Origin: Streptomyces hoynatensis
GTDB lineage: Bacteria; Actinomycetota; Actinomycetes; Streptomycetales; Streptomycetaceae
Assembly (NCBI RefSeq): GCF_003626535.1
Contig: NZ_RBAL01000005.1
Location: forward strand, 62,001-126,000
Reading direction: 5' to 3'
Length of the DNA stretch: 64,000 bases
Shown: piece after piece, positions 13,977 to 19,202 of the stretch
How the letters are laid out: each line of letters opens with the position of its first letter
How positions within the stretch are numbered: position 1 is the stretch's first letter
Made by a program: the position numbers and the translations under genes
The notes under the pieces: model-generated
Told to the model about the DNA's origin: nothing
Seen by the model: the letters and a program-made list of their open reading frames with translations, nothing else
Database searches by the model: none

Positions 13977-14588
13977 ATGTCGGTCATTCGGCTCCTGGTG
14001 CTGGGGGCGGTGCGGCAGCACGGGCGGGCGCACGGCTACCAGGTCCGCAACGACCTCGAGTTCTGGGGCGCGCACCGCTGGTCGAACGCCAAGCCGGGGT
14101 CGATCTACCACGCGCTGAAGCAGATGGCGAAGGAGGGCCTGCTGCTGGCGCACGAGACGGCCCCGAGCCCGGCGGGCGGCCCGCCGCGCACCGAGTACGA
14201 GCTGACCGCGGCGGGCGAGGAGGCGTACCTGGAGCTGCTGCGCGCCTCGCTGCGGGCCCACGACCAGCGGATCGACGTGCTCACCTGCGGCGTGGGCTTC
14301 CTGGTCGACCTGCCGCGGCGGGAGGCGGTGGCGCTGCTGCGGGAGCGGGTGGCCCGGCTGGAGGCGTGGCGGGAGGAGGTGGGCGCGGAGTGGACGCCGC
14401 AGGACCCGCCCGCCGGGTGGGGGCACATCGGGGAGATCATGCGGCTGTGGGTGCACCACGCGGAGTGCAGCGCGGAGTGGACGCGCGGCCTGATCGAACG
14501 GCTGGAGCAGGGCGCGTACGTGATGGCGGGTGAGGGGGAGCGCAGCGTGGAGGTGCTGCCCGAAGGCGAGCCGAACCCCTTCGGCTGA
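13977..14588 (+). CDS. PadR family transcriptional regulator
   Basis: 203 residues. The N-terminal winged helix is typical of PadR (VIRLLVLGAVRQHGRAHGYQVRNDL, then KPGSIYHALKQMAKEGLL and TEYELTAAGEEA), and a C-terminal alpha-helical dimerisation region follows. PadR proteins repress detoxification or exporter genes and respond to small molecules. The nearest neighbours are a divergent ThrE-type gene 250 bp away and a convergent XRE regulator, so the target is not obvious. ATG at 13977 is preceded by GAAGGGCGG. I see no clear operator. Confidence 0.92.
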   Translation: MSVIRLLVLGAVRQHGRAHGYQVRNDLEFWGAHRWSNAKPGSIYHALKQMAKEGLLLAHETAPSPAGGPPRTEYELTAAGEEAYLELLRASLRAHDQRIDVLTCGVGFLVDLPRREAVALLRERVARLEAWREEVGAEWTPQDPPAGWGHIGEIMRLWVHHAECSAEWTRGLIERLEQGAYVMAGEGERSVEVLPEGEPNPFG

Positions 14589-14629: not shown

Positions 14630-15535
14630 TCAGAGCGCGCGGCGCAGCTCGGTCAGCAGCTGCCGGGTGGCGGCGACGTCGAGGGCCGACTCGGCCAGGC
14701 GGTCGAGCACGTCCTGGTAGGCGGCGACCTCCTCGCCCTTGTCGAGGTACAGGGCGCCGGTGAGCTGCTCCAGGTAGACCAGGTCGGGGATCTCGTGCTC
14801 GGCGAAGCGCAGCAGCGTGAACGCCCCGGACTCGGCGACGTGCCCGCCCTGCGCGAACGGCACCACCTGGAGGGTGACGTTGGGGTACTCGGAGTAGGCG
14901 AGCAGGGCCCGCAGTTGCTCGTCCATCACGGCGTGGCCGCCGTACTGGCGGCGGAGCGCGGCCTCGTCGAGGATGCAGTGCAGGTGCGGGGCGTTCTCCG
15001 AGACCAGGAGCTTCTGGCGGCCGAGCCGGAGGGCGATGCGTTTGTCGACCTCGGAGCGGGGCAGGCGTCCGCGGTGACCGCTGACCATCACGGCGTGGGC
15101 GTAGGCCTCGGTCTGGAGGAGACCGTGCACGAACTGCAGCTCGTAGGTGCCGATGCGCTCGGCCGCGGCCTCCAGGCCGATGTAGGTCTGGAACCAGCTG
15201 GGGAGGACGTCGTTGTAGTTGTGCCACCAGCCGGCCTGTCCCGAGGCGCGGGCGAGGCGTAGCAGGGGCTCGCGTTCGTCGTCGTCGGTGACGCCGTAGA
15301 GGGTGAGCAGATCGGCGACGTCGCGCGGCTTGAAGCTCACCCGGCCGAGCTCCATCCTGCTGATCTTGGACTCGGAGGCGCGGATCGAGTAGCCGGCCTC
15401 CTCCCGGGTGACGCCGCGCTCCTCGCGCAGCCGCCGCAGCTGGGAGCCGAGCAGGATGCGGCGAACCATCGAGCCGCCGGCCGAAGCGGGGACGCTTCGC
15501 ACGCTCGTGCTCCCCACGATCTGTTCGGTACTCAT
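14630..15535 (-). CDS. XRE-family regulator with DUF5753 sensor domain (WhiJ-like)
   Basis: 301 residues. The N-terminal helix-turn-helix (LGSQLRRLREERGVTREEAGYSIRASESKISRMELG) is followed by the long C-terminal domain typical of the many Streptomyces WhiJ-like regulators (WWHNYNDVLPSWFQTYIGLEAAAERIGTYE). ATG at 15535 is preferred to the GTG two codons upstream because GGAGGG lies 9 nt before it. Genes of this family usually sit with a DUF397 protein and an RsbW-like ATPase; both are present here. A TGCACGTGCA palindrome lies 92 bp upstream, and the same motif precedes the DUF397 gene. Confidence 0.93.
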   Translation of the reverse strand: MSTEQIVGSTSVRSVPASAGGSMVRRILLGSQLRRLREERGVTREEAGYSIRASESKISRMELGRVSFKPRDVADLLTLYGVTDDDEREPLLRLARASGQAGWWHNYNDVLPSWFQTYIGLEAAAERIGTYELQFVHGLLQTEAYAHAVMVSGHRGRLPRSEVDKRIALRLGRQKLLVSENAPHLHCILDEAALRRQYGGHAVMDEQLRALLAYSEYPNVTLQVVPFAQGGHVAESGAFTLLRFAEHEIPDLVYLEQLTGALYLDKGEEVAAYQDVLDRLAESALDVAATRQLLTELRRAL

Positions 15536-15626
15536 TCGCACACACCCTCCACTTCCGACGAGACGAAGTCTGCCATCTTCACGTGCCGTTGGGTGCCCAC
15601 GTGATTACAGTCAATCAAAATTTTTC

Positions 15627-15654
15627 ATGCACGTGCATCTGCCCTTGCATTTGC
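15627..15654. promoter_or_regulatory. Palindromic operator candidate upstream of the WhiJ-like gene
   Basis: Contains the perfect 12-bp palindrome ATGCACGTGCAT (15627-15638) followed by CTGCCC and TTGCATTTGC. It sits in an unusually AT-rich patch between the divergent XRE and ATPase genes. A near copy lies upstream of the DUF397 gene at 16773-16802. Likely operator for the WhiJ-like protein; inferred from repetition and place. Confidence 0.6.
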
Positions 15655-15811
15655 CGTGAGCGTTGGGAAGCATGAGCCCTGCGCGCTGGGAACCGGTGCG
15701 TCAGCACGACCCTGCCGCGATCACAGCCGGGGCAGGCACGGGGGATGGCTTCGGGTATGTCAGCCCTCGTACGAGACGAGTGCCGTCGCCGTAAGCCAGG
15801 AGTGCCGCGTC

Positions 15812-16381
15812 ATGGGAACCAAAGGACTGCCCATGCTCGACCAGTTAGGGCAACCGTTCCCACCCGTCGACCCGCGGACGCTGGCCGGCACCGCGACCCT
15901 CGGCCTCTCTCCCCGGCCGGAATCGGTGCGCCGCGCCCGCGACTTCACGCGCAACACCCTGTACGGCTGGCGGCTGCCCGAGCAGTTCGACGCGGTCTCG
16001 CTCGTCGTCTCGGAGCTGGTGACCAACGCGCTGCGCCACGGCCTCGCCACCCGGCAGGTGCCGGCGCAGGGCCCTTCGCCCTCCCGCGCGCCGCAGACCG
16101 CCCCCGCCGCTCCCGCGGTCCCGGCACAGGCGGTGTCTTCCGCATCCCCGGGCGCGCAGACGGCGGCCGTCGAGCTCGAACTCATGCTGTGCGCACGCCG
16201 GTTGATATGCGCGGTGCAGGATCCGAGCGCCTCGGCCCCGCGCGTGGGGGACATGGACGGCGCGGCCGAGTCGGGACGCGGACTCCACCTGGTGGAGTGT
16301 TTCAGCGACGGCTGGGGCTGGCGCCGGCTGACCGGCGAGCGGCGCGGCAAGGTGGTCTGGGCGGTCTTCCAGCTCGGCTGA
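15812..16381 (+). CDS. RsbW-like ATP-binding (HATPase_c) regulatory protein
   Basis: 189 residues. The GHKL fold is recognisable: N-box VVSELVTNALRHG and a G-box region DMDGAAESGRGLHLVECFSDGWGWR. Such small ATPases act as anti-sigma kinases or partners of WhiJ-type regulators. An Ala/Pro/Ser/Gln-rich insert of about 45 residues (roughly 87-130) splits the domain between N- and G-boxes, longer than usual for the family. ATG at 15812 follows AGGAG by 9 nt; the frame is open upstream to 15656 without a supported start. It is divergent from the XRE regulator and convergent with the DUF397 gene. Confidence 0.9.
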   Translation: MGTKGLPMLDQLGQPFPPVDPRTLAGTATLGLSPRPESVRRARDFTRNTLYGWRLPEQFDAVSLVVSELVTNALRHGLATRQVPAQGPSPSRAPQTAPAAPAVPAQAVSSASPGAQTAAVELELMLCARRLICAVQDPSASAPRVGDMDGAAESGRGLHLVECFSDGWGWRRLTGERRGKVVWAVFQLG

Positions 16382-16410
16382 CGCCCCCGATGCGCCCCCT
16401 GGGCGCCCGT

Positions 16411-16459
16411 CAGCCGATGGCGGCCCCTTCAGCCGATGGCGGCCCCTTCAGCCGATGAG
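16411..16459. repeat. 19-bp tandem repeat at the 3' end of the DUF397 gene
   Basis: Unit CAGCCGATGGCGGCCCCTT occurs at 16411-16429 and 16430-16448; a truncated third copy (CAGCCGATGAG) from 16449 is the true end of the DUF397 coding region. The tandem looks like a local duplication of that end into the intergenic space. Confidence 0.85.
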
Positions 16460-16684
16460 ATGGTCGAACTCGCCGTCTTTCACACCCCGCAGCAGTGCTT
16501 CCACCTCTGCCGGGGTGTAGACCAGCGCGGGCCCGTCGGGGAACCGTGAATTGCGAACGGCTACGTCCCCGCTGGGCAGTTTCGCGAACTCCGCACAGGT
16601 GCCCTGTGAGTTGCTGTGGCTGCTCTTGAACCACACCACGTTCCGGAGCTCATGTGCGGCCATGCCGTTGTAAGCGTCGGGCAA
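16448..16684 (-). CDS. DUF397 family small protein (WhiJ-module partner)
   Basis: 78 residues from a TTG start at 16684, chosen because GGGAGAG lies about 5 nt upstream; the alternative ATG at 16663 lacks a site. The DUF397 signature is clear: VVWFKSSHSNSQGTCAEFAKL, then VAVRNSRFPDGPALVYTPAEVEALL and a Lys/Asp/Glu end. These small proteins are encoded beside WhiJ-like XRE regulators and are thought to modulate them; the molecular role is poorly known. A TGCACGTGCA operator candidate lies about 107 bp upstream, matching that of the XRE gene, with a TATGAT hexamer at 16772-16767 as a possible -10. Confidence 0.9.
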   Translation of the reverse strand: MPDAYNGMAAHELRNVVWFKSSHSNSQGTCAEFAKLPSGDVAVRNSRFPDGPALVYTPAEVEALLRGVKDGEFDHLIG

Positions 16685-16772
16685 CGGTCTCTCCCGGGTC
16701 GCGCGAGTGGTGCAACGAGAGCCCCACACGCACGCGTGGGACTCAACTACCGCCGATCATAACGTCGTTCAA

Positions 16773-16802
16773 TTGCATCTGCACGGGATAATGCACGTGC
16801 AC
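16773..16802. promoter_or_regulatory. Second copy of the WhiJ-module operator candidate
   Basis: TTGCATCTGCAC, a short spacer, then ATGCACGTGCAC (16791-16802). It shares the palindrome core TGCACGTGCA and the flanking TGCATCTGC string with the element at 15627-15654, in the same AT-rich setting, and sits near the -35 position of a TATGAT promoter for the DUF397 gene. Confidence 0.6.
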
Positions 16803-16963: not shown

Positions 16964-19111
<2,148 letters not shown>

Positions 19112-19202
19112 CAGCTCCGCCGCCCTTTGACCTCTCGCCTCAACCGCCACGGCCACCATAGGCGCCGGGAAGGACACGGCAGGGCCCGTCCGCGGATTCG
19201 GC

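Follow-up and report, generated by a model that had tools for sequence, protein, structure and literature searches.

Two near-identical 27-bp sites lie on the apparent core promoters of a WhiJ-type gene trio in the stretch of 64,000 nucleotides analysed here (the window), and the DNA-binding protein encoded in the cluster itself is the probable binder of both. We consider it likely that these sites, A and B, are a dedicated operator pair of the cluster, bound by its XRE protein and controlling the partner genes, and that the cluster is probably the orthologue of SCO3421-SCO3423-SCO3424. The sites, their conservation, their orientation, the fixed -10-like spacing and the restriction to the locus were all computed. 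The trio itself had been proposed in a sequence-only reading of this DNA, and the domain matches agree with it. The XRE protein carries HTH_31 (E 1.6e-17) and DUF5753 (E 7.8e-57) in Pfam, the combination expected of a WhiJ-type protein. Its neighbours are those of a WhiJ-type cluster, namely an antisigma/AbaA-like product (HATPase_c_2, E 2e-10) and a small BldB-like product (DUF397, E 4.9e-19). A sequence search of solved structures gave no match at E 0.01 for either the XRE or the RsbW-like protein; the DUF397 protein had a single match, which was not significant. The genes and elements concerned are as follows.

13977-14588, plus strand: PadR gene
14630-15541, minus strand: XRE regulator gene, WhiJ-type (HTH_31 and DUF5753, Pfam), start GTG 15541 or ATG 15535
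15604-15609, minus strand: TGTAAT, putative -10-like hexamer of the XRE gene, 17 nt from the -35-like GTGCAT (15627-15632), which overlaps the palindrome
15628-15654, plus strand: site A, TGCACGTGCATCTGCCCTTGCATTTGC, candidate operator between the XRE and RsbW-like genes, facing the latter
15645-15650, plus strand: TTGCAT, second box, placed as a putative -35 element of the RsbW-like gene and upstream of its -10-like hexamer by a gap of 17 nt
15668-15673, plus strand: AAGCAT, putative -10-like hexamer of the RsbW-like gene (genus consensus AACCAT), operator positions 41-46
15812-16381, plus strand: RsbW/AbaA-like ATPase gene, 189 aa, HATPase_c_2, TTA at codon 12 (15845-15847)
16448-16684, minus strand: DUF397 (BldB-like) gene, DUF397 match, proposed start TTG 16684, GTG 16729 possible
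16756-16761, minus strand: TATGAT, putative -10-like hexamer of the DUF397 gene, operator positions 41-46
16775-16801, minus strand: site B, TGCACGTGCATTATCCCGTGCAGATGC, candidate operator upstream of and oriented towards the DUF397 gene, with GTGCAG (16779-16784) at the -35 position
16964-19177, minus strand: recQ

The palindrome TGCACGTGCA occurs exactly twice in the window (15628-15637 and 16792-16801), and exact copies of TGCATCTGC stand beside it at 15634-15642 and 16774-16782, just as the sequence-only reading had described. Its estimate that the motif lies about 90-110 bp upstream of the XRE and DUF397 genes also holds. The distance is about 90 bp to the XRE start (GTG 15541 or ATG 15535) and about 108 bp to TTG 16684 of the DUF397 gene, or 63 bp if GTG 16729 is taken; TTG 16684 is the more plausible start because it is preceded by GGGAGA. 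The AT-rich patches in which the sites lie are indeed rare in the window: the lowest 50-bp GC near the sites is 0.38 and 0.46 versus 0.748 overall, and the patches are two of the 8 runs with GC of 46% or less.

Taken singly and with one mismatch allowed, neither string goes beyond chance in the window, where 3 matches to TGCACGTGCA were found versus 2.16 expected, and 15 matches to TGCATCTGC versus 10.88 expected. The 7.26-Mb genome contains 10 copies of TGCACGTGCA and 20 of the reversed pattern. At least five of the eight copies away from the trio lie inside long high-GC3 frames, and the others are close to what may be a gene start or to the end of a contig. Both strings are parts of a 27-bp composite with the consensus TGCACGTGCATCTGCCCTTGCATCTGC, in which TGCA boxes recur at offsets 0, 6 and 18 in both sites. 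Each site is a set of TGCA boxes and not a palindrome with a chance neighbour. In site A, TGCATCTGC-type boxes lie 12 bp apart, and repeated local boxes in an intergenic region are what a WhiJ9-type operator consists of. Sites A and B are mutually inverted on opposite strands. A genome scan with TGCAYNTGC-N9-TGCAYNTGC gave three exact matches, which are the two sites and a low-complexity TGCACC run; genome-wide abundance, which the sequence-only reading would have counted against itself, is thus not seen. Given this rarity and the genus-wide conservation of the 27-mer, the significant unit is the composite and not the single strings, and the bare palindrome, at chance level by itself, was rejected as the conserved unit.

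Conservation at orthologous loci had been set beforehand as the test of the motif, and the motif is kept there. Of 199 Streptomyces genomes, 195 contain TGCACGTGCATCTGCNCTTGCATNTGC with at most two mismatches, and no strand carries more than one copy; the reversed-pattern control was present in 0 of 199. The four genomes with no match at this threshold (G025, G076, G134 and G185) have sites A and B at the same places with 3-4 mismatches each. Among the matches listed, the two sites of a pair are on opposite strands and separated by about 0.95-1.16 kb, with the exceptions of G003 (1.6 kb), G180 (2.2 kb) and G114, where they fall on two contigs. When loci were selected by the XRE protein and the duplicates L087 and L088 were left out, site A was found with at most two mismatches in 34 of 34 loci, compared with a minimum of 8 and a mean of 13 in shuffled regions, a null that covers site A and not site B. 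Site B was found with 0-6 mismatches in all 29 of these loci with sequence available; the window's own copy, at 6 mismatches from the genus consensus, is among the weakest found. A check of 18 genomes at the right locus (20 stretches, with the paralogous locus L167 left out) recovered site A with at most four mismatches in all 18 and site B in 17, and in G145 site B could not be recognised. A slightly looser pattern, applied to a draw at order level, matched 132 of 147 genomes: 131 of 132 inside the genus and one of 15 outside it (G199); the control pattern had 1, 1 and 4 hits in the genomes G208, G243 and G312.

The element also extends beyond the genus. Among 21 related loci, TGCACGTGCA stands at the locus in six Streptomyces, four Embleya-type (one of them labelled Streptomyces sp. 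SID3343) and nine Streptosporangium records, and it is absent from the locus in L054 and L055, relatives of 38% and 31% that were excluded from later ortholog counts. The 27 bp are near-invariant while the flanks change fast. The operator-like element that had been suspected at the trio is thus conserved and locus-restricted, both across Streptomyces (195 of 199 genomes) and at the Embleya and Streptosporangium loci. As a separate observation, the Embleya-type loci L041-L043 and L053 show a second TGCACGTGCA and more TGCA-rich repeats around the RsbW-like promoter.

To describe the promoter geometry, 59 of 71 site A sequences and 54 of 63 site B sequences were aligned after filtering for near-identity and length. 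The alignment includes L124-L153, which were retrieved by the motif, and it is anchored on TGCA[CT]GTGC, so that the anchor itself accounts for part of the conservation at the first nine positions. At positions 41-46 of the site A alignment a hexamer is shared (A 59, A 59, C 45, C 53, A 57 and T 58 of 59), and TATGAT occupies the identical positions of the site B alignment (47-50 of 54 per base). In both promoters the NTGCAT of the second box lies 17 nt upstream of the -10-like hexamer. The hexamer of site B follows the 27-mer at 13 nt in 47 of 54 sequences, at 14 nt in one and at 25-26 nt in six, and by eye these six long-spaced copies have an extra box that ends 13-14 nt before the hexamer. 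Because the hexamer and the NTGCAT spacing are fixed in both alignments, the Streptomyces sites look like parts of the apparent core promoters of the RsbW-like and DUF397 genes, and the palindrome would span about -52 to -43 of each. This geometry corrects the sequence-only reading, which had placed the sites at two minus-strand promoters: site A faces the plus-strand RsbW-like gene at a fixed -10-like spacing.

Other arrangements are found outside Streptomyces. Streptosporangium has only one site, which the divergently transcribed RsbW and DUF397 genes share and which faces RsbW and away from DUF397, and at Embleya-type loci the DUF397 site faces away from the DUF397 gene, so the orientation towards DUF397 is a rule in Streptomyces only. 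The -10 position is occupied by CAAGAT in 7 of the 9 Streptosporangium records (another sequence in L045 and L047), and the four Embleya-type records have CATAAT one base off this position. On the XRE side, 16 loci of the host clade and its allies were chosen for a short site-to-XRE distance, and all 16 have TGTAA or CGTAA 18-19 nt past the palindrome. In the other Streptomyces displayed, the projected XRE start is 119-214 bp from the site and no common XRE hexamer was seen by eye. At Embleya-type loci the RsbW and DUF397 genes have sites and the XRE gene, convergent with DUF397, is without one; in Streptosporangium the XRE gene lies downstream of DUF397, behind the shared site. The notion of an autoregulated trio therefore survives in part: it agrees with the XRE -10-like spacing in the 16 loci of the clade and its allies, but not with the XRE genes elsewhere. 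Since the Embleya-type XRE gene is without a site and the other Streptomyces lack a shared XRE hexamer, the trio is better described as partner genes under the control of the XRE protein, which in the host clade probably regulates its own gene as well.

Regarding the identity of the cluster, a relative at E 1e-60 or better was found in 199 of 199 Streptomyces genomes, and the cluster is also present in Embleya and Streptosporangium. In G001, which is 79% complete, the relative reaches only 4.2e-72 and may be a paralogue. The trio is probably the orthologue of SCO3421-SCO3423-SCO3424, where the S. coelicolor proteins were matched by published description; both clusters combine a WhiJ paralogue, an antisigma-like gene with a TTA codon and a BldB paralogue. 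In the published passages, SCO3421 is a WhiJ paralogue widespread in complex actinomycetes (PMC4255298), and its antisigma-like neighbour nearly always contains TTA in Streptomycineae, with SCO3423 listed as TTA-containing (Chandra and Chater, PMC4255298). Passages elsewhere describe SCO3424 as a BldB paralogue (PMC1934918, PMC6767563), and SCO3423 or SCO3424 is also named in PMC4848846. In our data, codon 12 or 14 of the RsbW-like gene is TTA at 38 of 41 Streptomyces loci, the exceptions being L038, L098 and L113, and in 0 of 13 Embleya/Streptosporangium-type records; the 41 loci, like the 59 used for the helix comparison below, contain a few same-genome duplicates. The assignment draws on this TTA codon, kept in Streptomyces and absent from the records outside. 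The passages on SCO3421 in PMC4255298, and those on SCO3423 or SCO3424 in PMC10771440, PMC6767563 and PMC1934918, contain no operator of the present kind, and a literature search covering main texts did not find TGCACGTGCA together with Streptomyces. As a side observation, passages of two sigma-E studies count SCO3423/SCO3424 among the sigma-E targets (PMC10771440, PMC6767563), a possible link to envelope stress.

Two other identities were rejected. The window XRE protein scores 371 bits against NCBIfam NF058600 ('Sco1979 family', cut-off 350), and three other loci of the host genome score 447, 440 and 422, so the trio is not the genome's best member; on this ground the SCO1979 label was rejected. 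An equivalog cut-off passed by several paralogues of one genome makes the family name misleading here. The loci of this family have CACT/AGTG boxes, whereas the trio locus has TGCA boxes. Scr1/Scr2 (SCO4441/SCO4442) are likewise an XRE and DUF397 pair, reported in the available text as conserved throughout Streptomycineae and wider (PMC6262351). This identity was set aside on gene order and the TTA codon: in Scr1/Scr2 the DUF397 gene is listed as following the XRE gene (PMC10364602), whereas in the trio the TTA-bearing RsbW-like gene stands between them. If an XRE-DUF397 pair were a type II toxin-antitoxin system, its DUF397 protein should be toxic when overexpressed by itself; the passages available report that 14 DUF397 proteins of S. 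coelicolor showed no clear toxicity (PMC10364602), and the same is reported for Scr2 (PMC6262351).

The candidate operator follows the precedent of WhiJ9 in S. venezuelae; its conservation is unusually strong, and its clean geometry at the promoters makes it easy to test. The WhiJ9-BldB9-iosA locus resembles the trio in having a WhiJ-type XRE gene beside a BldB-like DUF397 gene and a repeated-box operator in a divergent intergenic region. According to passages of PMC10294661, WhiJ9 binds direct repeats beside iosA, namely three copies of CGXXCTCAAC located 113 bp upstream of the iosA start; iosA activation in a bldB mutant requires WhiJ9, and loss of WhiJ9 raises whiJ9 transcription 2-fold, which was reported as autorepression. 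By contrast, the trio boxes lie at the -35 position of two partner genes, and the CGXXCTCAAC repeat has 4 chance-level matches in the window, none of them at the trio. As the WhiJ9 site differs in both sequence and position, its mechanism need not transfer to the trio. The WhiJ, BldB and AbaA families are large, poorly understood sets of Streptomyces regulators, and in its passages the 2023 study (PMC10294661) only speculated that the other WhiJ proteins act likewise, each on its neighbouring abaA gene. A near-invariant -35 element at an AbaA-like and a BldB-like gene would turn this speculation into a simple binding test, and a genus-wide cluster offers defined promoters on which the sign of regulation can be measured.

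The mechanism that we infer takes the XRE protein as the binder and the hexamers as promoters, and includes a sign of regulation, a role for the DUF397 protein, bldA dependence and the SCO3421 identity. The XRE protein would bind the 27-bp composite, in which the TGCACGTGCA palindrome is followed at 18 bp by a TGCATCTGC box. The second box would then lie at -35, and the palindrome at about -52 to -43, of the promoters of the RsbW-like gene and the DUF397 gene, and with such positions occupancy would decide whether RNA polymerase starts at both genes. In the host clade the palindrome lies over the divergent XRE -35-like region, and through this overlap the XRE protein probably represses its own gene. 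TTA codons confer dependence on bldA, and the one in the RsbW-like gene would add bldA-dependent timing.

As for the sign, overlap with -35 alone is equally compatible with repression and activation. We lean slightly towards an XRE protein that activates the partner genes and is restrained by the BldB-like DUF397 protein, rather than one that simply represses them, on the analogy of WhiJ9 and BldB9 in S. venezuelae and because the -35 hexamers under the box are poor. Plain repression at the trio promoters, with the XRE protein bound over the -35 box and the DUF397 protein relieving it, is a serious contender at somewhat less than even chances. The second box at the -35 position of both promoters suits it, as do the XRE -35-like hexamer overlapping the palindrome in the window, the 2-fold autorepression by WhiJ9 (PMC10294661, in part) and the model of Ainsa et al. 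2010 as given in a passage of PMC6262351, where WhiJ is a repressor released by its DUF397 partner. However, RTGCAT and TTGCAT are far from TTGACA and the RsbW -10-like AACCAT is weak, which suits a promoter needing help, and in the passages on iosA it is the loss of BldB that gives WhiJ9-dependent activation (PMC10294661).

Activation or repression by the XRE protein both presuppose that it is the binder. Another regulator, such as a paralogous WhiJ, BldD, a DUF397 complex or a global factor, might bind the sites while the XRE protein acts elsewhere, since the XRE protein is tied to them by sequence alone and many WhiJ paralogues are described per Streptomyces genome (PMC4255298, in part). 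We regard this as unlikely: a global factor is expected at many sites, yet no genome has a second copy of the composite on either strand; paralogous clusters bear different elements; and S. venezuelae BldB is reported, in the passages available, not to bind DNA (PMC10294661). The coincidence of the second box with the -35 position might also mean that the composite serves as part of a promoter, an RNA structure or a coding sequence instead of a regulator's operator. This has a very low probability, as the palindrome upstream of -35 is conserved as well, at both sites and across genera, and the six of 54 site B copies that are lengthened upstream keep a box 13-14 nt from the hexamer. Chance or shared ancestry of a short palindrome with no function would explain the chance-level counts of the bare strings in the window and the eight further genome copies of TGCACGTGCA, at least five of them in coding-like high-GC3 frames. 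It is contradicted by the near-invariant 27 bp beside fast-changing flanks, in two copies per locus, by the absence of the reversed control from the 199 genomes and by the shuffled minimum of 8 mismatches, and we consider it extremely improbable. The dedicated, XRE-bound operator pair is the reading that we retain.

This operator type is specific to the cluster among the paralogous loci examined. TGCACGTGCA occurred in 0 of 33 paralogous loci (30 NF058600 loci and three of the host genome), and 25 of the 30 NF058600 loci have ACACTTGGCA in common. Intergenic CACT/AGTG boxes are visible in most NF058600 loci (L056-L085), L065 with its CACTCTGCATTTTTCAGAGTGACACTTGCCAAGTG being one case. The host genome's closest sister cluster, whose XRE protein is 53% identical to that of the trio, has TTGCA every 12 bp between its DUF397 and RsbW-like genes, and at least two TTGCA 12 bp apart were found in 12 of 14 loci of the sister orthologues (not in L212 and L219). 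Elsewhere in the genomes, a shorter pattern with one mismatch gave, by eye and among the matches listed for 121 genomes, off-locus matches similar in number to those of the reversed control; G096 was without a match to this pattern, yet has a site at 2 mismatches to the 27-mer. A recurring off-locus string, CGTGCACGTGCAGCGGC, was rejected as coding, since it lies in a response-regulator-like frame in the host genome.

The segment that we assign as the recognition helix is presumably IRASESKISRMELGRV in the Streptomyces and Embleya XRE proteins (with L043 excluded from the Embleya row), IRASHSKISRMELGRV in Streptosporangium and IRGSHAKISRLELGRV in the sister cluster, and it is close to VapaTvRRMExAEV in the NF058600 group. 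Groups with different presumed helices have different elements, suggesting that the element type follows the helix, in a comparison of few groups. We tentatively propose that operator type covaries with the recognition helix, so that a recognition code for the whole family might be read from genomes, although we put this at less than an even chance. As a minor observation, the sister cluster of the host genome (L123:4815-4950, G000:C6) shows, by eye, tandem 12-bp units resembling TTCTTGCANNTG, up to about eleven of them; a repeat finder resolved the array into two arrays of 2.8 copies, and the number of units varies between species.
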